Below, in pieces: positions 29,349-63,600 of a stretch of 64,000 nt of DNA. The stretch spans positions 62,001 to 126,000 of the forward strand of contig NZ_CP115484.1 in assembly GCF_027627475.1 (NCBI RefSeq). The letters run 5' to 3'. Position 1 is the stretch's first letter; every line of letters begins with the position of its first letter. A program made the translations under genes and the position numbers. The notes beneath the pieces are model-generated. The model was not told the origin of the DNA. It ran no database searches and was given only the letters and a program-made list of their open reading frames with translations. This stretch comes from Paenibacillus sp. SYP-B4298 (GTDB taxonomy: Bacteria; Bacillota; Bacilli; Paenibacillales; Paenibacillaceae).

Positions 29349-29379
29349 GTTAGTGACATACGTAGATAAGAAGTTAGGC
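29349..29379 (+). other. Candidate attI (primary insertion site) at the head of the cassette array
   Basis: Two core-like sequences, GTTAGTG (29349-29355) and GTTAGGC (29373-29379), stand 24 bases apart downstream of the recombinase gene. GTTAGGCG is complementary to the inverse core CGCCTAAC of the first attC (30253-30260), showing that the first cassette begins here after the G. Two spaced core sites is the layout of attI sites. Confidence 0.7.
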
Positions 29380-29406
29380 GAAATTATATAGAGAGGGTAA
29401 AAGCTT

Positions 29407-30234
29407 ATGGAGAGAAGAGGAATAAGTGATCTGGCTGCGGCTAAACTTTTAAAATATAAGAGCACATATAAAAATGAATCTATAAATTACTATAAGTTAT
29501 GGAATGATGAAACAATAACAATGAAATTTTCTCATCTTTATCCAAGTGGAGTTAGCTATTGGTACGGGGTTACACCGAGTGCGCTTCAAAAATACCAATC
29601 GGAAAATATATCAGCGCTATGTTTAATATTAGGTTATGAAGGCGTTTTGAAAATACCATTTAATTATATTCTTGATTACATAAAGAACGCTGATGAATCA
29701 AAGAATGAAAAGGGGGGAATTAAGCATTATCATTTAAGGATTAAATATGACGACACTATTAAAATGTATAACAAGAGTAAAGAGTTTGATGTTAGTGAAT
29801 ATTTGATTTTTGATGAAGAAGTAATTATTGATGATTTGAATAAAAAAACTATGGATCAAATTGAAATGGAGGCTAAGAAATTTAGTGATTATTCAGTTCA
29901 ATATACTGAGAGTGAGAAAAGAAGCAGAATAAGAAAAGAGAGTAAAGCACAAAAACAAAGAATTGCCAAACTAGAGAAACATACATGTCAAGTATGTGGT
30001 TTTTATCAAGAGTATACCAGAAACAATAGACTGTCTTGGATAATCCATGTTGATCATATTATTGATAAATCTAGAGGAGGTGGGGAAACAATCGACAACT
30101 TATGGGTGTTATGCCCTAATTGTCATTCCAAAAAGACCTACGGTATTATTGAAATTAATAAAGAAGAAAAAACTGTTAAAGAAAATGGACGGTTAATTGA
30201 TATAAGAGATAATCATTTAGGATGGAAAAACTAA
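29407..30234 (+). CDS. HNH endonuclease, first cassette gene
   Basis: A 275-residue protein. The C-terminal third has a full zinc-supported HNH motif: 'CQVCGF', then 'HVDHIID', 'NLWVLCPNCHSKK'. The N-terminal 190 residues are of unknown type and might recognise DNA or a partner. AT-rich codon usage contrasts sharply with the recombinase upstream, indicating separate origin. RBS GAGAGGG before ATG. Closest to the array head, so the most recently inserted cassette in an integron model; a restriction or anti-phage function is plausible but not shown. Confidence 0.87.
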   Translation: MERRGISDLAAAKLLKYKSTYKNESINYYKLWNDETITMKFSHLYPSGVSYWYGVTPSALQKYQSENISALCLILGYEGVLKIPFNYILDYIKNADESKNEKGGIKHYHLRIKYDDTIKMYNKSKEFDVSEYLIFDEEVIIDDLNKKTMDQIEMEAKKFSDYSVQYTESEKRSRIRKESKAQKQRIAKLEKHTCQVCGFYQEYTRNNRLSWIIHVDHIIDKSRGGGETIDNLWVLCPNCHSKKTYGIIEINKEEKTVKENGRLIDIRDNHLGWKN

Positions 30235-30253
30235 TAGCAAGAACTATAACTTC

Positions 30254-30414
30254 GCCTAACATCGTATTCACGCATCGGGCCATCCGGCCCTCGGTCTGGA
30301 CAGAGGGATTGCGGGGAAGCGGGATCAGCCGGACAACCCTGCACTGGCTAAGTCTGACGACCCGGGCTGGCGCCCTTAAGCCAGTGAGGGTTCGTGAATA
30401 CAAGAACGTTATGC
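30254..30414 (+). repeat. attC site 1
   Basis: Inverse core GCCTAAC, arm GTATTCACG paired with CGTGAATAC, core GTTATGC. 161 bp. Own inverse core pairs with the left cassette border at 29373. Confidence 0.9.
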
Positions 30415-30460
30415 GTAACTTCCTAAATCGAAAAAACGAATGTAAAGCAATATAAAAGTT

Positions 30461-31212
30461 ATGCCGGGAAGAGGAATCGAGGAAGCTACAGCCAACGGCA
30501 CTTAAGGAGTCGGCAGAGCATGCCGGGAAGAGGAATCGAGGAAGCGACAGCCAACGGCACTTAAGGAGTCGGCAGAGCATGCCGGGAAGAGGAATCGAGG
30601 AAGCTACAGCCAACGGCACTTAAGGAGTCGGCAGAGCATGCCGGGAAGAAGAATCGAAGAAGCTACAGCCAACGGCACTTAAGGAGTTGGCAGAGCATGC
30701 CGGGAAGAAGAATCGAGGAAGCTACAGCCAACGGGACTTAAGGAGTCGGCAGAGCATGCCGGGAAGAGGAATCGAGGAAGCTACAGCCAACGGCACTTAA
30801 GGAGTCATCAGAGCATGCCGGGAAGAAGAATCGAGGAAGCGACAGCCAACGGCACTTAAGGAGTCGGCAGAGCATGCCGGGAAGAAGAATCGAGGAAGCT
30901 ACAGCCAACGGCACTTAAGGAGTCGGCAGAGCATACCGGGAAGAAGAATCGAGGAAGCGACAGCCAACGGCACTTAAGGAGTCGGCAGAGCATGCCGGGA
31001 AGAAGAATCGAGGAAGCGACAGCCAACGGCACTTAAGGAGTCGGCAGAGCATGCCGGGAAGAAGAATCGAGGAAGCGACAGCCAACGGCACTTAAGGAGT
31101 CGGCAGAGCATGCCGGGAAGAAGAATCGAGGAAGCGACAGCCAACGGCACTTAAGGAATAGGAAGAGCATGCCGGGATGAGGAATCGAAGAGGCAACAGC
31201 CAACGGGACTTA
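30461..31212 (+). repeat. 59-bp tandem repeat array in a gene-less cassette (array A, about 13 units)
   Basis: Direct repeats of exactly 59 bp (starts at 30461, 30520 and so on), beginning ATGCCGGGAAGAGGAATCGA. 59 is not a multiple of three and no ribosome site or steady frame exists, so it is not coding. Each unit can pair TGCCG with CGGCA. The flanks (AACTTCCTAAATCGAAAAAA left, GAAGTAATTCAAAGAAGACG right) are shared with arrays B-E. Confidence 0.92.
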
Positions 31213-31245
31213 TGTTTGAAGTAATTCAAAGAAGACGGAAGCGAC

Positions 31246-31427
31246 GCATAACACCACATTCACGCTTCGGGACGGTCGTCCCTTGGTCTGCTGGAGGAAT
31301 TTCGAGGAAGTAGAATCAAGCAGACAACCCTGCGAGGCTAAGTCTGTCGACCCGGCTTGGCGATTGCTTCGCATGATCGCCGCGGCAGCTTAAGCCTCTC
31401 GGGTTCGTGAATGCAAGAACGTTATGC
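31246..31427 (+). repeat. attC site 2
   Basis: Inverse core GCATAAC and core GTTATGC, arms ATTCACG/CGTGAAT, 182 bp, long-type variant with CGATCGC-like inner helix (GGCGATTGC / GATCGCCG). Pairs with border at 30408. Confidence 0.9.
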
Positions 31428-31468
31428 GTAACTTCCTAAATCGAAAAAACGAATGTAAAGCAAAAGTT

Positions 31469-31922
31469 ATGCCGGGAAGAAGAATCGAGGAAGCTACAGC
31501 CAACGGCACTTAAGGAGTAGGCAGAGCATGCCGGGAAGAGGAATCGAGGAAGCTACAGCCAACGGCACTTAAGGAATAGGAAGAGCATGCCGGGAAGAGG
31601 AATCGAAGAGGCTACAGCCAACGGCACTTAAGGAGTCGGCAGAGCATGCCAGGAAGAGGAATCGAGGAAGCTACAGCCAACGGCACTTAAGGAGTCGGCA
31701 GAGCATGCCGGGAAGAGGAATCGAGGAAGCTACAGCCAACGGCACTTAAGGAATGGGAAGAGCATGCCGGGAAGAGGAATCTAAGAGGCAACAGCCAACG
31801 GCACTTAAGGAATAGGAAGAGCATGCCGGGAGGAAGAATCGAGGAAGCTACAGCCAACGGCACTTCAGAAATAGGAAGAGTATGCCGGGACGAAGGTTCG
31901 AGGAGGCAACAGCCAACGGGAC
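31469..31922 (+). repeat. 59-bp tandem repeat array B (about 8 units) in a gene-less cassette
   Basis: Same unit and same flanks as array A. Later units are more divergent (AATAGGAAGAG replacing GTCGGCAGAG). No plausible gene; the ORF running out of its end into the attC is a by-product. Confidence 0.92.
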
Positions 31923-31958
31923 TTATGTTTGAAGTAATTCAAAGAAGACGGAAGCGAC

Positions 31959-32138
31959 GCATAACACCACATTCACGCTTCGGGACTGTCGTCCCTTGGT
32001 CTGCTGGAGGAATTTCGAGGAAGTAGAATCAAGCAGACAACCCTGCGAGGCTAAGTCTGTCGACGGCTTGGCGATTGCTTCGCATGATCGCCGCGGCAGC
32101 TTAAGCCTCTCGGGTTCGTGAATGCAAGAACGTTAGCT
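31959..32138 (+). repeat. attC site 3
   Basis: Inverse core GCATAAC, core GTTAGCT, 180 bp, nearly the same interior as site 2. The inverse core matches the left border (31421), not its own right core, as expected for a cassette. Confidence 0.9.
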
Positions 32139-32170
32139 GAAATACCTGATACCTTAAGGGGACTGATCTA

Positions 32171-32527
32171 ATGACTTTAAAACTTGTCCCGTTAAGAATC
32201 CCAACGGGCTGGATTATATTAAAGAACTCTTTCACAGAAGCAAATCCAGACAATTTTAATGATGAGGAATATGAACATATATGGGAATTTAAAGAAGATA
32301 TACTACAGTTAAGAAATAAGAATTTAAAGCGAATCGTTGATTTAGGTTGGTATCCAGCGCATAAGGCTGAAGGTCAATATTGTTTAGTGCTGGTTGATAC
32401 TTCAGAGGCTAATGATGAGGGATCATTTTATTGGAAAAAAATAGATAATTATAGATCAAGAAATATAAATGAAATAACAACTAAAATAGAGGATCTACTG
32501 AATAAAGTCAATCAAGGCGAGTTGTAA
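32171..32527 (+). CDS. Unrecognised 118-residue protein, copy 1
   Basis: A soluble acidic protein with many aromatic residues ('GWIILKNSF', 'YEHIWEFKEDILQL', 'GWYPAHKAEGQYCLVLVD'). I recognise no family. RBS AAGGGG lies 11 bases before ATG. An almost identical copy with three residue changes is found at 39859 together with the same border and attC, so the whole cassette was duplicated. The tight conservation, with only three changes, argues for recent copying or selection. Confidence 0.8.
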   Translation: MTLKLVPLRIPTGWIILKNSFTEANPDNFNDEEYEHIWEFKEDILQLRNKNLKRIVDLGWYPAHKAEGQYCLVLVDTSEANDEGSFYWKKIDNYRSRNINEITTKIEDLLNKVNQGEL

Positions 32528-32552
32528 GGTTCTCGAAGAAGTCAGGTACTTC

Positions 32553-32699
32553 AGCTAACACCGTATTCACGCATCGGGCCATTCGGCCCTCGGTCCGGCA
32601 GAGGGATTTCGGGGATGCAGGAGCAGCCGGACACATCGATCTCCCTAAGATAGGAGTTATCTAAGGGGGATCGATGTCGTGAATACAAAGACGTTATGC
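32553..32699 (+). repeat. attC site 4
   Basis: AGCTAAC / GTTATGC, 147 bp, with an inner perfect helix around CGATCTCCCTAAGATA. TTCAGCTAAC pairs over 10 bases with the left border GTTAGCTGAA at 32132. Near-identical to site 15. Confidence 0.92.
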
Positions 32700-32745
32700 G
32701 TAACTTCCTAAATCGAAAAAACGAATGTAAAGCAATATAAAAGTT

Positions 32746-33140
32746 ATGCCGGGAAGAGGAATCGAGGAAGCTACAGCCAACGGCACTTAAGGAATAGGAA
32801 GAGCATGCCGGGAAGAGGAATCGAAGAGGCAACAGCCAACGGCACTTAAGGAGTCGGCAGAGCATGCCGGGAAGAGGAATCGAGGAAGCTACAGCCAACG
32901 GCACTTAAGGAGTCGGCAGAGCATGCCGGGGTGAGGAATCGAAGAAGCGACAGCCAACGGCACTTAATGAATCGAAAGAGTATGCCGGGAAGAAGAATCG
33001 AAGAAGCTACAGCCAACGACACTTAAGGAGTTGGCAGAGCATGCCGGGAAGAAGAATCGAAGAAGCTACAGCCAACGACACTTTAAGGAATAGGAAGAGC
33101 ATGCCGGGATGAGGAATCGAAGAGGCAATAGCCAACGGCA
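32746..33140 (+). repeat. 59-bp tandem repeat array C (about 7 units) in a gene-less cassette
   Basis: Same unit, left flank and right flank as arrays A and B; one unit has an extra T (CACTTTAAGG). No gene seen. Confidence 0.9.
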
Positions 33141-33177
33141 CTTTTATTTGAAGTAATTCAAAGAAGACGGAAGCGAC

Positions 33178-33359
33178 GCATAACACCACATTCACGCTTC
33201 GGGACGGTCGTCCCTTGGTCTGCTGGAGGAATTTCGAGGAAGTAGAATCAAGCAGACAACCCTGCGAGGCTAAGTCTGGCGATCCAGCTTGGCGATTGCT
33301 TCGCATGATCGCCGCGGCAGCTTAAGCCTCTCGGGTTCGTGAATGCAAGAACGTTATGC
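33178..33359 (+). repeat. attC site 5
   Basis: GCATAAC / GTTATGC, 182 bp, same subtype as sites 2, 3, 6 and 8. Pairs with left border at 32693. Confidence 0.9.
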
Positions 33360-33402
33360 GTAACTTCCTAAACCGAAAAATGAATGTAAAACAATATAAG
33401 TT

Positions 33403-33738
33403 ATGCCGGGAAGAAGAATCGAGGAAGCTACAGCCAACGGCACTTAAGGAATCGAGAGAGCATGCCGGGAAGAAGAATCGAGGAAGTTACAGCCAACGGC
33501 ACTTAAGAAATTGAAAGAGCATGCCGGGAGGAGGAATCGAGGAGGCGACAGCCAACGGCACTTAAGGAATTGGAAGAGCATGCCGGGAAGAAGAATCGAG
33601 GAAGCTACAGCCAACGGCACTTAAGAAATTGAAAGAGCATGCCGGGACGAAGGCTCGAGGAGCGACAACCAACGGCACTTAAGGAGTCGGCAGAGCATGC
33701 CGGGAAGAAGAATCGAAGAGGCGACAGCCAACGGCACT
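33403..33738 (+). repeat. 59-bp tandem repeat array D (about 6 units) in a gene-less cassette
   Basis: Same unit and flanks as the other arrays, with more substitutions between units. No gene seen. Confidence 0.9.
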
Positions 33739-33773
33739 TTTGTTTGAAGTAATTCAAAGAAGACGGAAGCGAC

Positions 33774-33954
33774 GCATAACACCACATTCACGCTTCGGGA
33801 CGGTTGTCCCTTGGTCTGCTGGAGGAATTTCGAGGAAGTAGAATCAAGCAGACAACCCTGCGAGGCTAAGCCTGTCGACCCGGCTTGGCGATTGCTTCGC
33901 ATGATCGCCGCGGCTGCTTAAGCCTCTCGGATTCGTGAATGCAAGACGTTATGT
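33774..33954 (+). repeat. attC site 6
   Basis: GCATAAC / GTTATGT, 181 bp, same subtype as site 5. Inverse core matches left border GTTATGCG at 33353, not its own right core. Confidence 0.9.
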
Positions 33955-33999
33955 GAAACCCCTGCATTCATTAAAAAACTAATAGAGAGGAGTATTTTT

Positions 34000-34524
34000 A
34001 TGCTCTCTGAAGAATTAATAAGTTCAAAATCTATAATAATCAGAACAAGTAGTAAAGAAGATTTAGAATTTGTATTGATGGCTGAGCAAGACCCTAAAAA
34101 TAACAAGTACATTATAAGATGGTCGGAACTGGAACACCTAGATGCAATGAATAATAAAGATAAAATCCATATGATTATTGAAAGCACTGATAATGGTAAA
34201 GTTGGATTTTGTATCTTAAGTGGTTTAAGCAATAAGAATGGATGTATTGAATTGATAAGAATAGTAATTGTAAAGAAAGGCAATGGATATGGTAAGGAGT
34301 CAATAAATCTACTACAGAAATATGTATTTGAAAAATTAAAAGCACATAGATTCTGGCTTGATGTGAAAGAGCATAATTACAGAGCAAGAGAATTATATGA
34401 AAACAGGGGATTTGTTATTGAGGGTAATCTGAGAGAAGCGTTAAAGAGTGAAAAGGGATATGAATCACTAGTAATAATGGGGATGCTAGAAACAGAATAT
34501 AACAAAATTCAAAGGAAGTTGTAG
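34000..34524 (+). CDS. GNAT family N-acetyltransferase
   Basis: A 174-residue single-domain acetyltransferase. The acetyl-CoA loop is degenerate but visible as 'VIVKKGNGYGKESINLL' (Q/R-x-x-G-x-G/A region), and the C-terminal 'NYRARELYENRGFVIEGNLRE' is typical of RimI/RimJ-like members. Substrate unknown. RBS AGAGGAG before ATG. One of seven GNAT genes in the array; all differ in sequence, so they were acquired separately rather than duplicated. Confidence 0.88.
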   Translation: MLSEELISSKSIIIRTSSKEDLEFVLMAEQDPKNNKYIIRWSELEHLDAMNNKDKIHMIIESTDNGKVGFCILSGLSNKNGCIELIRIVIVKKGNGYGKESINLLQKYVFEKLKAHRFWLDVKEHNYRARELYENRGFVIEGNLREALKSEKGYESLVIMGMLETEYNKIQRKL

Positions 34525-34548
34525 TATCTCTAGGATGGCAGGGGCATC

Positions 34549-34742
34549 ACATAACACCGTATTCACGCTTCGTCGCTATCGCTCCTTGGTCCGGGCCGAA
34601 GTAGAAGAAGTGTTTCGAAGAAGAAGTTTCAGTAGCAGGGAAGCATAGTCAGCCGGACAACCCTGCACTGCCTAACCGCGTCGCGGCCCCTCCCTTCGGT
34701 CGTTTAAGCCAGTGAGGGTTCGTGAATACAAGAACGTTATGC
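34549..34742 (+). repeat. attC site 7
   Basis: ACATAAC / GTTATGC, 194 bp, the longest site. TCACATAAC pairs with left border GTTATGTGA at 33948. Interior resembles site 1. Confidence 0.9.
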
Positions 34743-34788
34743 GTAACTTCCTAAATCGAAAAAACGAATGTAAAGCAATATAAAAGTT

Positions 34789-35069
34789 ATGCCGGGAAGA
34801 GGAATCGAGGAAGCTACAGCCAACGGCACTTAAGGAGTCGGCAGAGCATGCCGGGAAGAGGAATCGAGGAAGCTACAGCCAACGGCACTTAAGGAGTCGG
34901 CAGAGCATGCCGGGAAGAAGAATCGAAGAAGCTACAGCCAACGGCACTTAAGGAGTTGGCAGAGCATGCCGGGAAGAAGAATCGAAGAAGCTACAGCCAA
35001 CGGCACTTTAAGGAATAGGAAGAGCATGCCGGGAAGAGGAGTCGAAGAGGCAATAGCCAACGGCACTTA
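34789..35069 (+). repeat. 59-bp tandem repeat array E (about 5 units) in a gene-less cassette
   Basis: Same unit and flanks as arrays A-D, shortest copy. No gene seen. Confidence 0.9.
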
Positions 35070-35102
35070 TGTTTGAAGTAATTCAAAGAAGACGGGAGCG
35101 AC

Positions 35103-35284
35103 GCATAACACCACATTCACGCTTCGGGACGGTCGTCCCTTGGTCTGCTGGAGGAATTTCGAGGAAGTAGAATCAAGCAGACAACCCTGCGAGGCTAAGT
35201 CTGTCGACCCGGCTTGGCGATTGCTTCGCATGATTGCCGCGGCAGCTTAAGCCTCTCGGGTTCGTGAATGCAAGAACGTTATCC
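35103..35284 (+). repeat. attC site 8
   Basis: GCATAAC / GTTATCC, 182 bp. Inverse core matches the left border at 34736. Confidence 0.9.
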
Positions 35285-35379
35285 GAAACACCTGAAACTG
35301 ACTCGAAATACTGGCTGCATAGTCCGCGGCAAATGGTTTGAAATAGCCGAGGTTTGGTAAATGTGAATTGGCGTATAAG

Positions 35380-35652
35380 ACCGAAGAACTGTATAGACCG
35401 AAGAACTGTATAGATCGAAGAGCTGTATATCGAAGAACTGTATAGACCGAAGAACTGTATAGATCGAAGAGCTGTATAGATCGAAGAACTGTATAGATCG
35501 AAGAGCTGTATAGATCGAAGAGCTGTATAGATCGAAGAGCTGTATAAGATCGAAGAACTGTATAGATCGAAGAGCTGTATAAGATCGAAGAACTGTATAG
35601 ATCGAAGAGTTGTATAAGATTGAAGAGCTGTATAAGATCGAAGAACTGTATT
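35380..35652 (+). repeat. About 17-bp tandem repeats in a gene-less cassette (copy 1, about 16 units)
   Basis: Units of 17-18 bp of the type CGAAGAACTGTATAGAT with A/G variation (GAACTG or GAGCTG). The conserved flanks, GCGGCAAATGGTTTGAAATA left and AATCAAGAAGCCAGGTGAAT right, recur at 38580-38910. Long minus-strand frames through it are low-complexity and lack a ribosome site, so I do not call a gene. Confidence 0.9.
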
Positions 35653-35682
35653 TTGTATGTGAATCAAGAAGCCAGGTGAATC

Positions 35683-35807
35683 GGATAACATAATGTTCAA
35701 GCATCGTCGCTGTTGCTCCTCGGTCTGGTAGAAGTTGTAGGCAGGGGAGTGGAATCAGCCAGACACACCCGGCATTCGCCGGGCGTCGTGAACACGGAAC
35801 GTTAACC
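35683..35807 (+). repeat. attC site 9
   Basis: GGATAAC / GTTAACC, 125 bp short type with the compact inner hairpin CCCGGCATTCGCCGGG. CGGATAAC pairs with left border GTTATCCG at 35278, while its right core is different. Confidence 0.92.
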
Positions 35808-35843
35808 GAAATTCTTGCACAATATGGAAAGGAATGAAGCTCG

Positions 35844-36731
35844 ATGCCAAGCATATTTTTAAGCCATACTAGTATTGATAAACCATTTGTTGAAAAACTT
35901 GCAAGAGATTTAAAAAGGATCGGAGTTAATGTTTGGTTTGATAAGTGGGAAATTAAGATAGGTGATTCAATTACTTGGAAGATTGAAGAAGGTATTCGTG
36001 AGAATGAATTTCTTGGAATTGTTTTATCTCCCGAAGCCTTAAGTTCTGAATGGGTAAAGAGTGAACTTGGGGCAGCTTGGGTGAAACAAATGCATACAAG
36101 AAAGGTTTTTGTTCTTCCTATTTACTATAGAAGTTGTGAAATTCCTTACTTCTTAGCTGATAGAAGATTTGCAGACTTTCGGTCTGACTATGAATATGGG
36201 TTTAAAGAGTTGGCTTCTATTTTTGGTATTGAAGAGACTGAAGCTATTACTCAAGACAACTGGAGAAAGTTTACGAAAAACAAAAAGGTTGATTGGAAGA
36301 AATATAAAATTAAAGAATTTGAGGAATTGGTTACTACATTAGTAGACCGTGCAATTGATTTTAAATGGTCAGCATGGGTTGGGGGGACAGCGAATGAATT
36401 TTCTATTACACTTCATACACAATCCCATTCTGAGAAGAAATCTGTCTCAATTAAACTTGTTGGTGAAACGAATTCATACATGGCAACATTTATTGATGAA
36501 TATAATCCAAACCACTTAAAGGTTACTGATTTTAATATTTATGTTGGAAATTCTGTGGATTCATGCGATGAGTTTGTTTACAGGATAATGAAAGATTTTA
36601 ATGAACAATTTGGGGCACCTACCGGAAAACCTGAATATGCTACTGAAAGATTTTCAAGAGGAAATGAGGTCTCTGAATTGACGAAAGAAATTATAAAGAA
36701 ATTTAACTGGTATAAAGGTGATAGACTCTAG
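35844..36731 (+). CDS. TIR domain protein
   Basis: A 295-residue cytoplasmic protein. Residues 1-130 are a TIR domain: 'IFLSHTSIDKPFVEKLARDLK', 'VWFDKWEIKIGDSI', 'GIVLSPEALSSEWVKSELGAAW' (candidate catalytic Glu of TIR NADases near SEW or SEL), 'VLPIYY'. The C-terminal 165 residues ('GGTANEFSITLHTQSHSEKK' onwards) are beta-rich and not recognised; they could sense a trigger. TIR proteins with unknown sensor parts are common in bacterial defence, so abortive NAD depletion is a good guess but unproven. RBS AAAGGAATG region; the ATG is at 35844. Confidence 0.87.
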   Translation: MPSIFLSHTSIDKPFVEKLARDLKRIGVNVWFDKWEIKIGDSITWKIEEGIRENEFLGIVLSPEALSSEWVKSELGAAWVKQMHTRKVFVLPIYYRSCEIPYFLADRRFADFRSDYEYGFKELASIFGIEETEAITQDNWRKFTKNKKVDWKKYKIKEFEELVTTLVDRAIDFKWSAWVGGTANEFSITLHTQSHSEKKSVSIKLVGETNSYMATFIDEYNPNHLKVTDFNIYVGNSVDSCDEFVYRIMKDFNEQFGAPTGKPEYATERFSRGNEVSELTKEIIKKFNWYKGDRL

Positions 36732-36756
36732 CTTATTCAGAGATGGCAAGAACATC

Positions 36757-36921: not shown

Positions 36922-36954
36922 GAAATATCCAAACACTTTTAGAGGAGTACAAGA

Positions 36955-37991: not shown

Positions 37992-37992
37992 A

Positions 37993-56054: not shown

Positions 56055-56103
56055 ATGAAAGTGAAATAGGATCTTGCAGGCTACTCATGCAGTCAGGAAA
56101 TAC

Positions 56104-56222
56104 GCATAACCCATATTAACCCATCAGGCCATCCGGCCCTCGGTCGGGCAGAGGTATTTCGGTGAAGAGGAAGCAGCGGACAACCCTGCACTGTCTAAGT
56201 CCGTCGGACAAGAATATTAGGA
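56104..56222 (+). repeat. attC site 36 (right core degenerate)
   Basis: GCATAAC pairs over 10 bases (TACGCATAAC) with left border GTTATGCGTA at 55442. Right core is degraded to ATTAGGA and the distal arm is lost. Confidence 0.8.
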
Positions 56223-56282
56223 AAAATTCTATTTGAGGAATTAAAACCTAAAAAATGATATAATAAACAAAAACGTTTGAGA

Positions 56283-56512
56283 GGGATCAAATGTAAAATG
56301 GAAAGAAGTTCAAAAAATATATCCAGACTAATTTGTAAAGTTTGAGATTATAGACTCGATTAAAATGGATGATAAGGAAATCATAGAGGAAGTAGCGTTA
56401 ATAGGTCCGTTGAAGGATGAAGATGCAACACGAGAGTTGCTAAACTGCAAGATTTACTCAGCCTAGTGTTAAAGCGTCTGCAATGAAATTGCAGATTTTT
56501 TTATACGCGATA
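56283..56512 (+). pseudogene. Degenerate third copy of the aspartic-protease pair
   Basis: Nearly identical in DNA to 37741-37905 and then to 38333-38390, with about 430 bases deleted between 'CTAAACTGCAAG' and 'ATTTACTCAGCC'. The GTG start became ATGTAA and an early CAA became TAA, so even the remaining partner gene is dead. Promoter TATAAT and the terminal hairpin with T run are kept. Shows deletion decay of a once mobile cassette. Confidence 0.85.
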
Positions 56513-56533
56513 ACAGGAGGAAAATATAACTTC

Positions 56534-56655
56534 TCCTAATACCATGTTCAAGCTTCGTCGCCAACGCTCCTCGATCTGGAAGAAGTTATAGGCAGGGGAG
56601 TGGAATCAGCTAGACACATCCGGCATTCGCCGGGCGTCGTGAACACACGTTATGA
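56534..56655 (+). repeat. attC site 37 (left core mutated)
   Basis: TCCTAAT / GTTATGA, 122 bp. The inverse core has lost its final C; left border is ATTAGGA. Short type, related to site 12. Confidence 0.8.
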
Positions 56656-56681
56656 GAAATCAAATTAAAGGAGAAACAAAA

Positions 56682-57581
56682 TTGGGGAAAAAACTAACTA
56701 TATTTCTTGTGGATGGCTCAGAGACAGGGCCTAGAACAATTGAAATCGGTAATTGGTCAGGAAAGGCTGTATATTCACAAAGGTCTTCCCTGCCCCAAAT
56801 TATAGAGCGCTCTGAGTTTAATAGACCAGGAGTGTATATTTTAAAATCCTTACCCAACAACGACAACTATAATGAACGCATATACATAGGGGAATCGGAA
56901 AATCTTAAAAAGAGATTAAAGAAACACTTAGCTGATTCAGATAAGGATTTTATTGAAATTGTAGCTTTTATAAGTAAAGACGAAATGCTTACTAAATCTC
57001 ATATAAAGTATTTAGAATCTAGAATTATCTCTTTATCTAAAGATGCGAAAACAGCCGAAATCGATAATTCGGTTCAGCCTGAGCTAACGACTCTTCCTGA
57101 AGCTGATATTTCAGACATGGAGTATTTTTTAGAACAGATGAAGTTGATTTTTCCGGTAGTTAATTTTATGTTCTTGGTTCCTTCTATCCTTAAACCATCA
57201 AATGAGACTGTGGTTGCGCCATTACAAGGTAATAGTGATATCGTATATACGCTGAAAAGTAAAAGAGCTTCTGCTAAATTAATTGAAACTGAAAAAGGCT
57301 ACGTTGTTCTGTCTGGATCCCAAAGTTGTAAGCAAACGTCAAGTTCAATCTCTGAAGGATGGATCAAACAGAGAAATAAACTGATAGAAACCGGAGTTCT
57401 GATCGATGGCGGAGAGTTTTATATATTCAACGAAAATGCGATTTTTTCTAGTATTAGTGCAGCGACTGCTGTAGTACTAGGGCGTCAAGCAGCAGGCCCT
57501 GTAGAGTGGATAGATATTAATGGAAGGACATTCAAGCAGAACCAGGAAAAGAAATTTGAAAGTGAGAGCAATGAAGATTAA
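56682..57581 (+). CDS. GIY-YIG domain protein with C-terminal DUF4357-like domain, copy 2
   Basis: A 299-residue protein with the same layout as the product at 40446: short beta start, GIY-YIG core ('GVYILKSL...ERIYIGESENLKKRLKKHL'), 'LTKSHIKYLESRIISL', a spacer, and 'SISAATAVVLGRQAAGPVEWIDINGRT' as C-terminal domain. Sequence similarity is clear but moderate, so this is independent acquisition of a family rather than recent duplication. TTG start at 56682 after AAAGGAG. Confidence 0.85.
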   Translation: MGKKLTIFLVDGSETGPRTIEIGNWSGKAVYSQRSSLPQIIERSEFNRPGVYILKSLPNNDNYNERIYIGESENLKKRLKKHLADSDKDFIEIVAFISKDEMLTKSHIKYLESRIISLSKDAKTAEIDNSVQPELTTLPEADISDMEYFLEQMKLIFPVVNFMFLVPSILKPSNETVVAPLQGNSDIVYTLKSKRASAKLIETEKGYVVLSGSQSCKQTSSSISEGWIKQRNKLIETGVLIDGGEFYIFNENAIFSSISAATAVVLGRQAAGPVEWIDINGRTFKQNQEKKFESESNED

Positions 57582-57590
57582 TTTGACATC

Positions 57591-57687
57591 TCATAACAAA
57601 ATATTCACGCTGTGGACATTAGTCTTTGGTCTGGCATTCGCCAGACACCCGGCATTCGCCGGGCGTCGTGATCACAACACGTTATCA
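57591..57687 (+). repeat. attC site 38 (short)
   Basis: TCATAAC / GTTATCA, 97 bp. TCTCATAAC pairs with left border GTTATGAGA at 56649. Contains the inner CCCGGCATTCGCCGGG hairpin. Confidence 0.88.
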
Positions 57688-57750
57688 GAAATTGGGGTAA
57701 GGTCTATAAAGAGCAATACATACAAAACCATAAGAAAGAAGGGTTTGCTC

Positions 57751-58227
57751 TTGTCACACATTAGGGTTAGATGTACAGGATTGATTATAGAGAAAGAGTG
57801 CGTGTTGCTCGTTGAATATGAAGACAATGGTATTCATTATAACCTTCCTGGCGGTGGTCTGGAACCAGGGGAAACAATTAAAGAAGGAGTTGCCAGAGAA
57901 GTTCTAGAAGAAACGACTGCTAAAGTTACTGTAGGATCACTTGCCCTAACATATGAAATGGCACCCCATAATCAATCAGGAGAATATAGTAATCAAGAAC
58001 CGCATGGATTGCATCTTATATTTGAATGCAAATTAAAAGAGAATTCAATTCCTAAGTTACCTAACAGACCAGACCCGCATCAATCCGCCGTAAAGTGGGT
58101 TCCGATAGATGAGTTAGATTCAATTTTACTATTTCCAAACATTAAGAAAGAAATTAAAGCGTATGTAGAAACCAAGAGAAATATAGAATTAATAGAAGAT
58201 CATCAACTGGAAAGACAAGTATTTTGA
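57751..58227 (+). CDS. Nudix hydrolase
   Basis: A 158-residue protein with Nudix box 'GGGLEPGETIKEGVAREVLEETTA' at about residues 36-58, REVLEE intact. N-terminus 'RVRCTGLIIEKECVLLVEYE' is the usual first strand pair. TTG start at 57751 after AGAAGGG; the longer frame would read through the attC. Substrate unknown. Confidence 0.9.
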   Translation: MSHIRVRCTGLIIEKECVLLVEYEDNGIHYNLPGGGLEPGETIKEGVAREVLEETTAKVTVGSLALTYEMAPHNQSGEYSNQEPHGLHLIFECKLKENSIPKLPNRPDPHQSAVKWVPIDELDSILLFPNIKKEIKAYVETKRNIELIEDHQLERQVF

Positions 58228-58245
58228 AGCAAGGCCCCAAGCATC

Positions 58246-58297
58246 TGATAACACCGTATTCACGCTCCGTCGCTATCGCTCCTTGATCCGGCCGAAG
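58246..58297 (+). repeat. attC site 39 (only the left part remains)
   Basis: TGATAAC pairs (TCTGATAAC) with left border GTTATCAGA at 57681. Everything after CCTTGATCCGGCCGAAG is lost. Confidence 0.78.
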
Positions 58298-58318
58298 TTG
58301 AAAGTAGAGGTGAATGGA

Positions 58319-58981
58319 TTGGACGTTAATGAACTCCAACAGATTGAATGGATTATGAAATCATTTCAAAAACCTTGGTATATTGCCGGAGGTTGGGCGA
58401 TTGATATAGAGCTTGGAGAAGTAACACGTAAACACAAGGATATGGATAGAGGTTGGGCGATTGATATAGAGCTTGGAGAAGTAACACGTAAACACAAGGA
58501 TATGGATATTTGTATTTTTCGAGAGGATGCAGCATACGCTCTTAACTACTTTCAAGATTGGGATATACATGTAACGATACCGGGGGAGAACCGATTAGAG
58601 CCGTGTAAGGATATAGAGGATCTTAAATTACCGAGATATGGTTTACATTTGTATAAAGACAATGAGTTTTTGGAATTGCTGTTAACGGATCAGGAAGAAG
58701 AGGAAATAGTATTTCGGAAGAATAATGAAGTGAGAATGAAGATGAAAGAATTTGAAAAAGGAAGTACAACAAGGCCCTATGTCAACCCTGCTTGGCAACT
58801 ATTATTTAAGAGCTTGAGTACCCGTAAAGAAGATGAACATGATTTCAAGATTTACAGAGATCGAATACAAGACAAGAGCTCAATGAAATGGCTAAGAGAT
58901 AGTATGATAACAACCAATGGAAATAAGGAATGGATCGAAGAATTGAGTAAGCAGCTCGAAGATGGAGGGGACATCTTATAA
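58319..58981 (+). CDS. Nucleotidyltransferase (aminoglycoside-type) with duplicated active-site segment
   Basis: About 220 residues of the DNA polymerase beta-like nucleotidyltransferase fold related to ANT/AbiEii: 'PWYIAGGWAIDIELGEVTRKHKDMDICIF', with the GGWA motif and the H-x-D-x-D metal site. A 60-bp exact tandem duplication repeats 'RGWAIDIELGEVTRKHKDMD' in frame, so the active-site loop occurs twice, which should disturb the fold. The start is uncertain: TTG at 58319 or a codon up to 58283, because the attC fused to it is truncated. The stop lies inside the next inverse core. Confidence 0.78.
   Translation: MDVNELQQIEWIMKSFQKPWYIAGGWAIDIELGEVTRKHKDMDRGWAIDIELGEVTRKHKDMDICIFREDAAYALNYFQDWDIHVTIPGENRLEPCKDIEDLKLPRYGLHLYKDNEFLELLLTDQEEEEIVFRKNNEVRMKMKEFEKGSTTRPYVNPAWQLLFKSLSTRKEDEHDFKIYRDRIQDKSSMKWLRDSMITTNGNKEWIEELSKQLEDGGDIL
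58389..58508 (+). repeat. 60-bp perfect tandem duplication
   Basis: Bases 58389-58448 and 58449-58508 are identical, an in-frame 20-codon duplication inside the nucleotidyltransferase gene. Identity at every base implies a very recent event or an assembly artefact. Confidence 0.95.
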
Positions 58982-59158
58982 CACCATATTCACTCATCGG
59001 GCTATCTGTCCCTTGGTCTGCCGGAGGGATAATCGAGGAAGCAGGATCAGCCGGACAACCCTGCAAGACTAAGTCTGGCGACTCGGTATAGTGATTGCTT
59101 CAAATAATCGCCGCGGCAGATTAAGCCTTTCGGATTCGTGGACACAAGAACGTTATAC
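58976..59158 (+). repeat. attC site 40
   Basis: TTATAAC / GTTATAC, 183 bp long type. Left border missing, not testable. Confidence 0.87.
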
Positions 59159-59184
59159 GACATTCACCAAAGGATGAAAACCGT

Positions 59185-59847
59185 GTGATTAAAGGGATAT
59201 TATTTGATTTAGATGGAACATTACTTGATCGAGACCAATCATTACTCTTCTTTATTCAAAATCAGTATAATCGAATTCAAGCTCTTCAACGTATTGAGAA
59301 ACAAACCTTTGTGCAACGATTTATTGAATTGGATCAGAAGGGATATGTTTGGAAGGATAAAGTCTATCAGCAGCTTTTTGAAGAATATAATTTAGATTTG
59401 AATTGGGAAGACCTATTAGAAGATTATATTCAATCATTCCAATATCACTGCATTGGTTTTCCAGGATTAATTGAGATACTTGACTATTTAAAGGGCATGA
59501 ATCTGAAGCTTGGTATTATTAGCAATGGATTTGGTAGATTTCAAATGAATAATATAAGAGGGCTAAACATAGAGGATTATTTTGATGAAATATTGATTTC
59601 TGAGAATGAGGGTTTAAGGAAACCAGATATTAAAATATTTAACAGAGCACTAGATCGACTAGGATTAGAGCCTCAAGAAACCATATTTGTAGGAGATCAT
59701 CCGGTCAATGATGTAGACGCAAGCATTAAAGCTGGTATGAGAGGGATTTGGAAAGAAGATAACTATTTTGAGAAGCCTTCTAAAGATCATTTGATAATAA
59801 AGGACTTAATAGAAATAAAAGATATTATAGGAAGCATTTCGGGGTAG
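59185..59847 (+). CDS. HAD family hydrolase
   Basis: A 220-residue phosphatase-type protein: motif I 'ILFDLDGTLLD', motif II 'LGIISNGFG', Lys region 'GLRKPDIKIFNRAL' and motif IV 'TIFVGDHPVNDVDASIKAGMRGIW'. A helical cap of subclass C1 lies between motifs I and II. Close to the YjjG/phosphoglycolate phosphatase group; may dephosphorylate a nucleotide or drug phosphate. GTG start; the ribosome site (AAAGGATGA) is distant. Confidence 0.93.
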   Translation: MIKGILFDLDGTLLDRDQSLLFFIQNQYNRIQALQRIEKQTFVQRFIELDQKGYVWKDKVYQQLFEEYNLDLNWEDLLEDYIQSFQYHCIGFPGLIEILDYLKGMNLKLGIISNGFGRFQMNNIRGLNIEDYFDEILISENEGLRKPDIKIFNRALDRLGLEPQETIFVGDHPVNDVDASIKAGMRGIWKEDNYFEKPSKDHLIIKDLIEIKDIIGSISG

Positions 59848-59858
59848 TGGTGTACGTC

Positions 59859-59980
59859 GTATAATACCATGTTCGCGCATCGGGCTTTCAGCCTCGGTTA
59901 GGCAGGAGATAACTCGATGAAGTATATTCAGCCTGACACACCCGGCGTTCGCCGGGCGTCATGAACACAAAACGTTATAC
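59859..59980 (+). repeat. attC site 41
   Basis: GTATAAT / GTTATAC, 122 bp short type. TCGTATAAT pairs with left border GTTATACGA at 59152 except for the last base. Confidence 0.85.
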
Positions 59981-60013
59981 CACAGAATCTAATGTGTAAT
60001 TGGAGGTATTCCA

Positions 60014-60724
60014 GTGAAGTTAAATTCAAATTACTCAAAGAATAACGAAGTTAATATACATTATCTAGATTCTATTAATGATTCAGACTCAACATTAGTA
60101 CCGCTTCTAATTTGTCCTGGCTTATCCGAAGTGGCTGAAGAATATGAAGATTTCATCAAATATATGTTGCCCAGAAGATGCGTTGTGCTCTCCTTCCGAG
60201 GAAGAGGGAAGAGCGACACGCCAAATTTCGGATATGATTTGAAAGATCATATATCAGATGTAGAGTCTGTAGTTAAAGATGCTAAACTGGATCGATTTAA
60301 CCTGTTTGCATATTCACGAGGCGTATCCTATGCATTAGGTTATACCAGAAAGTATCCTGAACAAATTGAAAGACTGATCATTCAAGATTACCCTTCTGAG
60401 CATAAGGCAATGCCAAATCATTGGCCACAAGATTATATTGATAATTATATTGTGCCTTTTAACAGGTCTGGAAATATCAGAGCATTAGCTGTACAGGGAA
60501 TACAAAGAGAATCGACACAAGAAGCGATTCGAATAAAATATACAAAACCGGTACTTGTCATGCATGGATTACAAGAAGGTTCTCTATTATCAAATGAAGG
60601 TTTAGAACAATACAAAGGACAATATTCAAATATACGAATTGAAGGATTTTCAGAAAGTGGACATGATATTAGAAGTAAAGAAAAAACAAAACTGTATGAA
60701 ATAATCAAAGCATTTTTAGATTAA
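60014..60724 (+). CDS. Alpha/beta hydrolase
   Basis: A 236-residue alpha/beta-fold hydrolase. The oxyanion region is 'LLICPGLSEVAEEY', the strand before the nucleophile 'FNLFAYSRGVSYALG' (elbow A-Y-S-R-G, slightly off G-x-S-x-G), acid near 'VLVMHGLQEGS' and catalytic His in 'FSESGHDIRS'. GTG start after GGAGG. Esterase or peptidase activity expected; substrate unknown. Confidence 0.9.
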   Translation: MKLNSNYSKNNEVNIHYLDSINDSDSTLVPLLICPGLSEVAEEYEDFIKYMLPRRCVVLSFRGRGKSDTPNFGYDLKDHISDVESVVKDAKLDRFNLFAYSRGVSYALGYTRKYPEQIERLIIQDYPSEHKAMPNHWPQDYIDNYIVPFNRSGNIRALAVQGIQRESTQEAIRIKYTKPVLVMHGLQEGSLLSNEGLEQYKGQYSNIRIEGFSESGHDIRSKEKTKLYEIIKAFLD

Positions 60725-60743
60725 TCAAAGAATAGACTCCGTT

Positions 60744-60853
60744 ATATAACACTACATCCACGCTTCGGACCTGTCGACTCTCGATCCGTGGAACACATCC
60801 ACACCGACTAACCGCATCGCGTCCACTCCCTTGGTCGTTTATGTCGGTTAACA
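60744..60853 (+). repeat. attC site 42 (decayed)
   Basis: Inverse-core-like ATATAAC, then a recognisable but shortened interior ending in CGGTTAACA. Does not pair with left border GTTATACC; the distal arm is missing. Confidence 0.6.
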
Positions 60854-60903
60854 ATCAGAAATGGCCTCATTAAGGCGCTGAAGTGAAAGGAATAGATATA
60901 AAC

Positions 60904-61458
60904 ATGAACAATTCCGTCCTGAAACTTCGAAATTTTTTTATGCTGATCATAGTGTTTATAGATATAATTTGGTTATTTTCATTTATCATCAATTATGATA
61001 TTACCATATTCAAAAAAAGTAATTTTGTAATCCCTATCGCACTACACCTCATTTTATTTTTTTGGTTAGCCTATAAAAGTAAAGGGAAAAAGTTAATTCT
61101 GTTTGTTGTTTTAATTATTTTTTCTTCTCTTCTTTTGATTAAGCATTCATTTGCTCCAATGTTTAATCCATACAGCTACGAACATCTGCATATCCCTGGT
61201 CCTGGACATGATAGTGAAATTATAGTCGAACATCGAGCTAATCTGATAGATCAAGGCATTACACAGTATCGTGTCTATCAAACGAAAATATGGGGTTTAT
61301 TTTTAACTGAGTTAACGAATAAAGAAGTTGTTATAGAAGAACCACACAGATCATACCTTTCCCAAGAAGATATTTTTGATTACTCTGCTCCAGAATGGAC
61401 GAGAGGGACAGTTAGTTTTGATACGTATAAAGGAAAACTTACACTTAAGCTTAAATAA
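60904..61458 (+). CDS. Membrane protein of unknown function
   Basis: A 184-residue protein with three membrane segments in the first 85 residues ('FFMLIIVFIDIIWLFSFII', 'FVIPIALHLILFFWLAY', 'LILFVVLIIFSSLLLI') and a 100-residue hydrophilic end, probably outside ('HLHIPGPGHDSEIIVEHRANLIDQ'). No family recognised. Start at 60904 after AAAGGAA; 60883 is possible. Confidence 0.77.
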   Translation: MNNSVLKLRNFFMLIIVFIDIIWLFSFIINYDITIFKKSNFVIPIALHLILFFWLAYKSKGKKLILFVVLIIFSSLLLIKHSFAPMFNPYSYEHLHIPGPGHDSEIIVEHRANLIDQGITQYRVYQTKIWGLFLTELTNKEVVIEEPHRSYLSQEDIFDYSAPEWTRGTVSFDTYKGKLTLKLK

Positions 61459-61550
61459 CCGAGTATAAAAACCAAAATATTTGTGAATTAGATTGAATTC
61501 AAGAATGTTATATTCTTCTCCATTTTCATGTATAAAGGTAGGGAGATAGA

Positions 61551-62198
61551 ATGGCAAATCTAGTTATGCTCAGTGATTTAGCAATCGGTCGAAAAAGGCT
61601 TATTGATGATGAATTATTGAAATTGTTAAAGAGCAAAAATTTAAATCCAGCAATTGGATATATCCCATCATGTTCAGATCCGAATAGAATTTACTTTAAA
61701 TCCACAGTTGAATATTACAAGGCAATGGGGATAAACAATGTTAGCTATTTTGATCTCGATATGGAATATGATGAGAGTAAATTATCGGAAGTGTTTAATT
61801 TTGACGCATTACATTTATCCGGTGGGAATACATTCTATTTCCTTAGTACGATAAGGAAAAGAAACTTTATCAATATGATAAGATCATATGTTATGAACAA
61901 CGGAATTCTTATTGGAGTAAGTGCTGGAAGCATACTGATGACAAACTCTATTGAACTTGCAGGTTTTGGGGATTATGCAGACCAAAATTTCGTAGGCATA
62001 ACAGATTTGAGTTCGCTAGGGCTGGTCAATTTTGAATTTCTGCCTCACTGGAATGGTTCGACTGATGGAATAGAGTTATTAAGAAAGTACTCGAAAATGA
62101 AAGATACAATCATTTATGCTTGTAGAGATAATGACGGAATAATAGTTAATAATGATAAGGTAAAACTGATGGGTCAGATTGAAATCATACAAGAATAG
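61551..62198 (+). CDS. Peptidase E / type 1 glutamine-amidotransferase-like protein (S51 fold)
   Basis: A 215-residue protein with 'HLSGGNTFYFL', the nucleophile elbow 'LIGVSAGSILMT' (Ser of G-x-S-A-G) and 'FLPHWNGS' with the candidate His. These are hallmarks of S51 peptidases (aspartyl dipeptidase, cyanophycinase) and relatives. RBS GGGAGA before ATG. A core-like AGAATGTTATATT stands 45 bases upstream, likely the last trace of a lost attC. Confidence 0.88.
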   Translation: MANLVMLSDLAIGRKRLIDDELLKLLKSKNLNPAIGYIPSCSDPNRIYFKSTVEYYKAMGINNVSYFDLDMEYDESKLSEVFNFDALHLSGGNTFYFLSTIRKRNFINMIRSYVMNNGILIGVSAGSILMTNSIELAGFGDYADQNFVGITDLSSLGLVNFEFLPHWNGSTDGIELLRKYSKMKDTIIYACRDNDGIIVNNDKVKLMGQIEIIQE

Positions 62199-62431
62199 TC
62201 TGATCTAAGTGTGGATTCTAAGAGGGCAGGAATATCGCCTAACCGAACAAGTGGGATCAAGCGACCTGCACTGCCTGTCCGCGTAGCGGCCGCTATCGCT
62301 CCCTTAAGGCAACGCCCCTTGCTTGGTCTGCCGGAGGAATTTACGAGAAAGCTGGATCAGGTAGACAACCCTGCACCGACTAATCCCGCCGCTGCCGTTC
62401 CCGTTGCAAACCGTTAAGGAAAGGAGTATTT
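62199..62431 (+). other. Scrambled attC remnants, no gene
   Basis: Pieces of two long-type sites can be recognised (CTGCACTGCCTGTCCGCG, GGTCTGCCGGAGGAATTT, GTAGACAACCCTGCACCGAC), ending in core-like CGTTAAGG at about 62411. No intact arm pair. Probably two attC sites fused by deletion. A short frame across it is not credible as a gene. Confidence 0.65.
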
Positions 62432-63022
62432 ATGAACCGTAAAACTCTACGAAGATCGATATTACTAGTAGTGTTGTTATTATTGGTAATTTATTTGTTT
62501 AATAACTCCGGATATTCTATTATTGAAAATAATGCCATTAGAAACTCATATCCTTTCGAAGATGGTCAAGTGCTAAATGAGAATGATTATGAAAATAAGA
62601 AAGTAGTTATATGGAAGACTAACAATGGAAACTATGTGAAACTAATTGAACGTAAGTGGGGCTTCCTTTTTCACGTATCTAATGTGGCTGTCTTACAACC
62701 TATGTCACCATTAATAGGGAATGAAGGAGACATTAAACGGGCATGGTCGGCGAGCTTAAATTCAAAAAAGATGTACGAAACTATATTCGCAGTAGAATCA
62801 GATCATCCCGATATTAAGAGAGTAATTGTAAGTAATGATAATATCGACAACATAATCCCAGATGATTTGGAAGAAATAAAAGAGAACTCAACAGTATATA
62901 TCGAATTAAAATTAGAAGATGATTTCGCAACAGCTTACAGAGAACTAAATACAAAGGATGCTGGGGGATTTATATTTAGAGGAGTAAACGAAAAGGGAGA
63001 AATAATAGTATTAGGAAGATAA
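62432..63022 (+). CDS. Membrane-anchored protein of unknown function
   Basis: A 196-residue protein with one N-terminal membrane segment ('SILLVVLLLLVIYLF') and an extracytoplasmic domain with 'VVIWKTNNGNYVKLIERKWGFLFHVSN'. Similar short membrane proteins are frequent in Bacillales. RBS AAGGAAAGGAG. No function assigned. Confidence 0.78.
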   Translation: MNRKTLRRSILLVVLLLLVIYLFNNSGYSIIENNAIRNSYPFEDGQVLNENDYENKKVVIWKTNNGNYVKLIERKWGFLFHVSNVAVLQPMSPLIGNEGDIKRAWSASLNSKKMYETIFAVESDHPDIKRVIVSNDNIDNIIPDDLEEIKENSTVYIELKLEDDFATAYRELNTKDAGGFIFRGVNEKGEIIVLGR

Positions 63023-63062
63023 GGGCTTATCATTAAAAATCATTAACTTTTAAGGAGAAACT

Positions 63063-63341
63063 ATGAAGAATTCAAACTTATTAATTGCCGGTCTGATATT
63101 GATAATTTGCTTTTTGATCTATCAAGTGTTTGATTTGAAGCAAGAGATATGGTCAGTGGAAAATTCGCGACCTCCAGTAGTAGTACCTAATGGCTTTAGC
63201 ATTTATGGACAAGTCAGTGGAACTAGCAATGAAGATGGTTTCTGGGTATATAAGGATGATGAAAAAATCGTTTATTTTTTTAATTACGATCCAGAAACTA
63301 AAGAAATCACAAAGATTCAAACAAGTATTTATGATCAGTAA
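63063..63341 (+). CDS. Small membrane or secreted protein
   Basis: A 92-residue protein with one hydrophobic N-terminal segment ('LLIAGLILIICFLIYQVF') and a short hydrophilic domain. RBS AAGGAG before ATG. It lies 40 bases after the previous gene with no attC between, so the two may be one two-gene cassette. Not recognised. Confidence 0.72.
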   Translation: MKNSNLLIAGLILIICFLIYQVFDLKQEIWSVENSRPPVVVPNGFSIYGQVSGTSNEDGFWVYKDDEKIVYFFNYDPETKEITKIQTSIYDQ

Positions 63342-63361
63342 AAAGTCTAATGATAACGTGA

Positions 63362-63411
63362 AGGTCCATACGGACACACCCGGCGTTCGCCGGGTGTCGT
63401 GAACACAACAC
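63362..63411 (+). repeat. attC remnant 44 (right half)
   Basis: GGACACACCCGGCGTTCGCC and the CGTGAACACAACAC arm of a short-type site, without inverse core or a valid GTT core. Confidence 0.65.
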
Positions 63412-63504
63412 AATGAATATACAAAAGGCCAATTTGAAGAGCGGATTGAGAACGGGAAAAGAATACAAACATTTGTCAGCTAATTCAAGAAGGCATGTTA
63501 CATC

Positions 63505-63600
63505 CGATAACATAATATTCACGCTGCGGACATTCGTCCTTGGTTCGGCATTTTACTGTCACCCGACATACGCAGGGCTCGTGAACAGAACACGTTATAA
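63505..63600 (+). repeat. attC site 45
   Basis: CGATAAC / GTTATAA, 96 bp, short and diverged; arms ATTCACG/CGTGAAC. Left border not identifiable. Confidence 0.8.

Follow-up and report, generated by a model that had tools for sequence, protein, structure and literature searches.

A putative integron-like gene-cassette array preceded by a Xer-like recombinase gene in the chromosome of Paenibacillus sp. SYP-B4298

Results

The chromosome of Paenibacillus sp. SYP-B4298 (genome 6.26 Mb, a single contig) carries a unidirectional array of genes and attC-like sites, which occupies positions 29373-63603 on the + strand of the 64,000 nt stretch analyzed here (the window, C1:62001-126000). We consider this locus probably, at roughly 0.88, to be a chromosomal gene-cassette capture array that is integron-like in its working and is served by an integrase class of its own. 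The central observation is a pairing rule: the inverse core of a site is complementary to the left border of the cassette to which it belongs.

An earlier note on this DNA had described about 45 attC-like sites at 29373..63600, and our scans confirmed such an array. Site ends were called by matrices learned from the sites themselves, and three 3′ ends were added by a looser pattern. The window array contains 40 5′ ends and 36 3′ ends, all on the + strand, which make up 35 complete sites (Table 1). At 9 bits, the matrices matched the opposite strand 5 times (5′) and 3 times (3′) across the whole 164-kb stretch, and one shuffled copy of this stretch 3 and 7 times. A covariance model trained on 24 sites, 11 of them from the window, gave 46 matches in the whole genome, of which 45 fall in C1:92251-133150, all on the + strand, and 43 inside the window. 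The array thus runs past 64000, in degenerate form, to ~71 kb. The single match away from it is weak (G000:C1:2673640-2673786, E 0.0025). Scanning the window against Rfam gave no matches, and a tRNA scan found none.

Counting from a first border at 29373, 30 of the 35 window cassettes have a left-border ANNN that is the reverse complement of their own inverse core. Among 20,000 shuffles of the borders, the mean was 2.7 pairings and the maximum 12, and 18 different cores occur among these cassettes. The inverse core matches the right border of its own site in only 4/30 cases. These values are of the same order as the pairing rate of 33/37 given in the earlier note, and they uphold its statements that the inverse core often mismatches its own right core and that covariation over some 17 cores is hard to ascribe to chance. 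Among the five misses, three have no explanation and two have an alternative partner inside the cassette: the inverse core at 49996 is matched by an internal border at 49448, and that at 56538 by one at 56216, each with one mismatch in 9; for the left border of the latter cassette, at 55442, there is an exact inverse core at 56101.

The rule recurs in other genomes. Cassettes were detected in 22 of 25 loci scanned automatically for borders, and pairing was seen in 167 of 222 cassettes (window share 26/32). In the 21 other loci, some of which come from close relatives, 141/190 cassettes paired, and none of 5,000 within-locus shuffles exceeded 45. The own right border was matched in 17/187 over all 22 loci. 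At the three variable positions, the inverse core matched the left border at rates of 0.90, 0.83 and 0.88, and its own right border at 0.49, 0.40 and 0.44. The rule is weak at some loci, with 0/3 in L061 and half or fewer in L019, L064, L068 and L072.

We compared 216 cassettes for shared copies. One window cassette is present twice at non-adjacent places (Table 1), and non-adjacent near-identical copies were also found outside the window. Identical cassette order across genomes would have spoken against mobility; two shared cassettes, alike at 98.5% and 96.8%, stand in opposite order in two genomes. Both borders could be defined in 8/9 shared pairs (the L019 pair was omitted, its right border not being found). 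In these eight, gene and site are 82-99% alike between the borders, and the sequence beyond the core of the right border differs. The last bases upstream of shared cassettes are often alike because the L′ arm of the neighboring site lies there, and this likeness reaches further in two same-genome pairs (L059, L020). These comparisons indicate that a gene and its downstream site move as a unit with edges at GTT. Together with the recurrence of the pairing in 21 other loci, they agree with the cassette excision and insertion at G/TT that had been proposed for this array.

Integron sites follow the plan R″-L″-L′-R′ with a GTT core and the border rule. The same plan, with complementary arms and a core GTT, emerged here from our own scans, from arm statistics and from a consensus fold. 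Cassettes start at GTTANNNGAA, and a site consists of the inverse core (TTCNNNTAAC), 3 nt, the L″ arm, inner stems, the L′ arm, 6 nt and the core GTTA. Of 229 complete sites gathered from 23 loci, 183 have their best 8-nt arm at spacers 3/6 or, shifted by one base, 4/7. In the 219/229 sites with at least five of the six inner arm pairs, a set selected on those pairs, six of the nine arm positions (1, 2, 4, 5, 6 and 7) pair above all 1,000 shuffles; positions 1 and 2 are clearest, with 210 and 201 pairs versus shuffle maxima of 172 and 165. The consensus fold of 24 chosen sites has a closing stem and three inner stems, with 22 pairs, 11 of which show double-sided changes in at least one sequence. 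The inverse core and core GTT described in the earlier note were therefore found again, but its single long imperfect hairpin gives way to a branched consensus in the chosen sites.

A putative attI-like site is located next to the integrase gene (Table 1). Nineteen loci have a motif resembling CGAAGTTCGTAAATAAGAC ahead of the first border; L019, L020, L065, L068 and L070 are outside this set, the integrase end or the border not being found, and L071 was excluded from the consensus, its border being 2 kb away from the integrase. The motif contains a box like CGTAAATAA followed by three bases and GTTA, which resembles the R″-L″ half of the cassette sites. The highest-scoring second copy is located at -54 to -56 in 13/19 loci, and 9/13 of these have a shuffle P of 0.01 or less, three of them being near-identical. 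In a search for a Pc promoter, 27500-29500 contained one sigma-70-like site, compared with 1.6 in shuffles.

The integrase gene lies upstream of the array and points in the same direction. Its first ~100 residues form an extension common to the aligned relatives, for which Pfam gave no match in the two relatives scanned. Between this extension and the SAM-like domain, residues 84-172 (28115-28381) are low-complexity repeats of the EERQQGEAEE type; at this place the other integrases in the alignment show gaps or short, dissimilar linkers. The best curated match is NF040815, at 197 bits (cut-off 220), which is also the best match of five relatives, two of them above the cut-off. The IntI model TIGR02249 gave 178 bits on the window integrase, below its cut-off of 265, and 200-211 bits on the five relatives, compared with 468 and 506 for two IntI controls. 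In the genome scan, TIGR02249 aligned to the window integrase in two pieces, 7-177 and 230-289, and to the controls in one piece. We take the skipped stretch of the profile, 177-230, to be I2, the insertion specific to IntI, on the basis of the IntI1 positions; an insert of this size is absent from all 19 aligned integrase rows. The XerC and XerD curated NCBIfam models scored 165-210 bits on the window copy and relatives, below cut-offs of 330-335. By the curated model, the recombinase is not an IntI; we class it as Xer-like. PF00589 recombinases are encoded at nine places in the genome, one of them beside the array, and scanning the same genome with TIGR02249 found no IntI above the cut-off.

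In a tree of 37 proteins, 21 such integrases fall into a clade of their own (99/99), and so do three IntI (100/100). L051 (wrong frame picked) and L077 (without an open frame) had been removed beforehand. Joining the 21-row clade with IntI was not rejected (approximately unbiased test, p-AU 0.18), and the deep forks are weak. The integrases stand outside the branch of E. coli XerC, XerD and the genome's own L001. Three proteobacterial plasmid integrases, L080, L081 and L083, are placed near IntI with modest support (86/84); L080 matches TIGR02249 in two stretches only, and L083 adjoins an IS91 transposase.

The named relatives of the window integrase belong to Cohnella, Paenibacillus and Gorillibacterium; that of Cohnella endophytica (L017:9659-10813) is intact. 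The family and order labels used below follow from G310, a genome sharing the window's family code, which encodes the Cohnella protein at 100% identity. With the Cohnella integrase as query, matches were obtained in 142/394 genomes of the family (Paenibacillaceae, 1e-45), 73/246 of the order (Paenibacillales, 1e-60) and 28/299 of the phylum (1e-45), in overlapping samples with inferred taxonomic labels and judged by the integrase protein. Among the weaker matches there may be recombinases of other kinds, and some matches contain stop codons. Twenty loci, selected via the integrase and mainly for long contigs, were fetched; an array lies downstream on the same strand in 18/20, and at the remaining two (L065, L070) the contig stops within 450 bases of the gene. 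L071 has a sparse array with two sites in 20 kb. Arrays were also found downstream in 3/3 loci of other families in the order (L111-L113), and four loci of named relatives carry sites as well, L018 with one. Within the genus of the window, 5/7 genomes, including this one, have sites, and two of these five have the integrase at the thresholds used. A true IntI above the cut-off was found in 1/299 phylum genomes (L021 in G129, 375 bits); a canonical control array was not readable in L115, the 4.2-kb contig of this genome.

In ten phylum loci outside the order, GTTA 9-mers with an inverse at 250-1700 numbered 26 downstream and 2 upstream, while Markov shuffles gave a mean of 4.2 and a maximum of 12. 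L114 (1.2 kb) was excluded from this test. No pair was found in L102, L105 and L110, and L106 had 2 downstream and 2 upstream. Spread to other Bacillota is thus well supported at the sequence level. In six Bacteroidota plasmid regions, which are among the best integrase matches, there were 12 pairs downstream and 1 upstream (shuffle mean 4.6, maximum 11), with no pair in L090 and L092 and one in L091 versus 0.66 expected. The boundaries of these regions were set partly after looking, and the GTTA start was picked once the looser GTT-start results, which favored 2/6 regions, had been seen. This weakly indicated spread to Bacteroidota plasmids is suggestive only. GTT-start k-mers exceeded Markov shuffles in Rufibacter L093 (k 9, 10) and Pontibacter L094 (k 8, 10), and were no better than them in L074, L090, L091 and L092 at k 8, 9 or 10. 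The L093 and L094 plasmids have short hairpin sites, spanning 48-61 nt from the inverse core to the next border, apparently with the same 3- and 6-nt spacers.

Of the window proteins, 30 were compared with Pfam, in which seven had no match, and ten with PADLOC. The family matches predict acetyltransferases, NUDIX, glyoxalase and HAD hydrolase proteins, HNH, Mrr and GIY-YIG nucleases, a Cass2-type binding protein and an aminoglycoside-nucleotidyltransferase-like protein, besides the reverse transcriptase and the TIR-domain protein in Table 1. Five cassettes (30461-35069) are built of 59-bp tandem repeats, in which 38 units start with ATGCC(A/G)GG, 24 encode a 14-residue micro-open reading frame, MPGRGIEEATANGT or MPGRRIEEATANGT, and 30 have a Shine-Dalgarno-like motif at most 20 nt upstream. 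Two others (35373-35651 and 38632-38880) consist of 17-bp tandem repeats and show no obvious gene, and neighboring cassettes are sometimes similar repeats. An exact 60-bp tandem duplication lies within a nucleotidyltransferase-like gene (58389-58508). Two open frames on the - strand are found inside the array (45711-46348), one with a weak aspartyl-protease match below the cut-offs.

Table 1. Positions of the array, its complete sites and associated features in the window
Feature	Position	Strand	Basis
Integrase gene of 445 codons, with N-terminal extension, repeat linker, SAM-like domain and catalytic domain	27866..29203	+	profile matches, alignment
Possible second attI-like repeat, position -55	29318..29333	+	shuffle P 0.31, not above shuffle here
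attI-like motif with first border G/TTAGGCGAA	29354..29382	+	motif conservation
Cassette array inside window	29373..63603	+	matrix scan, covariance model
attC-like site	30251..30417	+	both ends found
attC-like site	31243..31430	+	both ends found
attC-like site	31956..32141	+	both ends found
attC-like site	32550..32702	+	both ends found
attC-like site	33175..33362	+	both ends found
attC-like site	33771..33957	+	both ends found
attC-like site	34546..34745	+	both ends found
attC-like site	35100..35287	+	both ends found
attC-like site	35680..35810	+	both ends found
attC-like site	36754..36924	+	both ends found
attC-like site	37489..37681	+	both ends found
attC-like site	38416..38546	+	both ends found
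attC-like site	38909..39039	+	both ends found
attC-like site	39699..39829	+	both ends found
attC-like site	40238..40390	+	both ends found
attC-like site	41373..41562	+	both ends found
attC-like site	42235..42365	+	both ends found
attC-like site	44005..44135	+	both ends found
attC-like site	44811..44977	+	both ends found
attC-like site	45565..45697	+	both ends found
attC-like site	47893..48077	+	both ends found
attC-like site	48711..48879	+	both ends found
attC-like site, short	49989..50075	+	both ends found
attC-like site	51075..51240	+	both ends found
attC-like site	52302..52496	+	both ends found
attC-like site	52952..53078	+	both ends found
attC-like site	53644..53833	+	both ends found
attC-like site	54435..54557	+	both ends found
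attC-like site	54662..54791	+	both ends found
attC-like site	55325..55451	+	both ends found
attC-like site	56531..56658	+	both ends found
attC-like site	57588..57690	+	both ends found
attC-like site	58973..59161	+	both ends found
attC-like site	59856..59983	+	both ends found
attC-like site, last complete one in window	63502..63603	+	both ends found
Cassette present twice, non-adjacent, 98.3% alike	32132..32556 and 39820..40244	+	cassette comparison
Cassette with TIR-domain protein	35801..36760	+	Pfam, PADLOC
Cassette with reverse transcriptase close to DRT8 model, 484 bits	42356..44011	+	Pfam, PADLOC

Discussion

On the tests applied to its sequence, the array works like an integron, and from these we infer its activity and a single-strand chemistry. 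The recombinase would cut at G/TT, and a circular cassette would re-form a fully paired R″/R′ arm once one strand folds. The folded strand could then recombine with a double-stranded attI or with another site, and replication would resolve the product, as in integrons. The choice of strand may stem not from an I2 helix but from the asymmetry of the 3/6-nt spacers or from the inner stems.

Several observations weigh against this reading. Outside the window, 48/190 cassettes mismatch at one or more of the three variable bases. Arm positions 0, 3 and 8 do not exceed shuffles; position 0 is usually A opposite C, and positions 3 and 8 are almost invariant. In 4/13 loci, the window's included, the second attI repeat does no better than shuffles. 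Folding of the sites had been suggested as a check in the earlier note; in DNA folds of 22 window sites, the bottom strand had the lower energy in 13 sites and the top strand in the other 9, so that the folds leave strand choice unexplained. The window integrase frame ends in LGHQSSRRRSATPM, ahead of the catalytic tyrosine, and the C-terminal stretch of the family with this tyrosine, TTQRYTHVSVKDVRRIRSPLD, continues in another frame at 29179-29262. The L019 and L020 frames also end early. The other 18 rows of the 19-row integrase alignment are open, having been chosen as open frames. Because its integrase frame is broken near the end, the array in this strain may now be frozen, unless the break is a sequencing error.

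It is unlikely, though the alternative deserves weight, that the recombinase acts in a Xer-like manner on double-stranded sites only and that the folded form plays no part. Such a reaction would suit an integrase lacking the stretch of the IntI insertion, and L′-6 nt-R′ looks to us like a dif-type Xer core site. However, a double-strand reaction at L′R′ would not explain why the inverse core matches the left border, or why L″ and L′ and the inner stems covary. Quite improbable is a relic whose sites were spread by host XerCD or by homologous recombination without a dedicated system: cassettes have their edges at GTT though their flanks differ, and open integrase frames are common among the family matches, even if several integrase copies, the window's among them, are broken and just two of the five genus genomes with sites have the integrase at the thresholds used. 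We regard as very improbable a classical integron in which an IntI encoded elsewhere runs or ran the array and the neighboring recombinase is a bystander. The site plan, GTT and border rule are integron-like and a true IntI does occur in one phylum genome, but the genome itself has no IntI above the curated cut-off, and in 18/20 loci and all of L111-L113 the array is preceded by the recombinase gene. Chance repeats or a non-recombining tandem gene family, to which the similar repeats of some adjacent cassettes might point, can be dismissed, being contradicted by the border shuffles in the window and in the 21 other loci.

A wider proposal, which we favor only slightly over its negation, is that a large unrecognized class of cassette-capture systems extends across Bacillota, with outliers on Bacteroidota plasmids, whose Xer-like integrases never had an I2 helix. 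Recombination of folded strands would then have arisen twice or preceded I2, and the view that I2 enabled integrons would need revision. PMC7790495 and PMC4792948 describe I2 as an integron-specific adaptation that is needed for cassette capture and is in no other protein, and propose that integrons originated when a Xer-like ancestor gained I2. A widespread natural cassette system without I2 would directly test this idea. Gram-positive genomes would also hold a large mobile cassette pool, including anti-phage genes, that escapes the curated IntI model, and we expect such arrays to be missed by IntegronFinder and a published attC model. PMC8618304 lists Firmicutes among the phyla with integrons, and PMC9024848 reports the sole complete Firmicute integron in Limnochorda pilosa plus a few clusters of attC sites lacking integron-integrases (CALIN). 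Among the literature matches listed, from open-licence PMC with preprints outside the scope, no comparable system was found.

Integrons consist of gene-and-site cassettes and an attI, and form long arrays of accessory and defense genes. The present array shares with IntI integrons the cassettes of gene plus site, the core GTT, the match between inverse core and left border, an attI-like entry site, the length of its arrays and the accessory and defense cargo. It differs in an integrase that stands outside the clade of IntI rows (joining the two not being rejected), lacks the I2 stretch and has an N-terminal extension; in an integrase gene that points in the direction of the array; in a core extended to GTTANNNGAA; and in a branched consensus site with 3/6-nt spacers. 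Because the defining feature, an IntI with its insertion, was not found, we do not file the array as an IntI integron. The description of an integron-type array in a Firmicute thus fits how the array seems to work and not IntI-type membership, since the recombinase fails the IntI model, lacks the I2 stretch and, in the present tree, lies outside the clade of the three IntI rows. From CALIN, which 3/7 genus genomes resemble in having sites without an integrase match at the thresholds used, it differs in that an integrase gene precedes the array in 18/20 loci, these having been chosen by integrase. With XerC, XerD and archaeal XerA the recombinase shares the catalytic family, and the model closest to it, though with a cut-off above its score, is NF040815 (recomb_XerA_Arch, 'site-specific tyrosine recombinase/integron integrase'); it is set apart from XerC and XerD by a separate branch in the tree, the N-terminal extension and the linkage to a cassette array.

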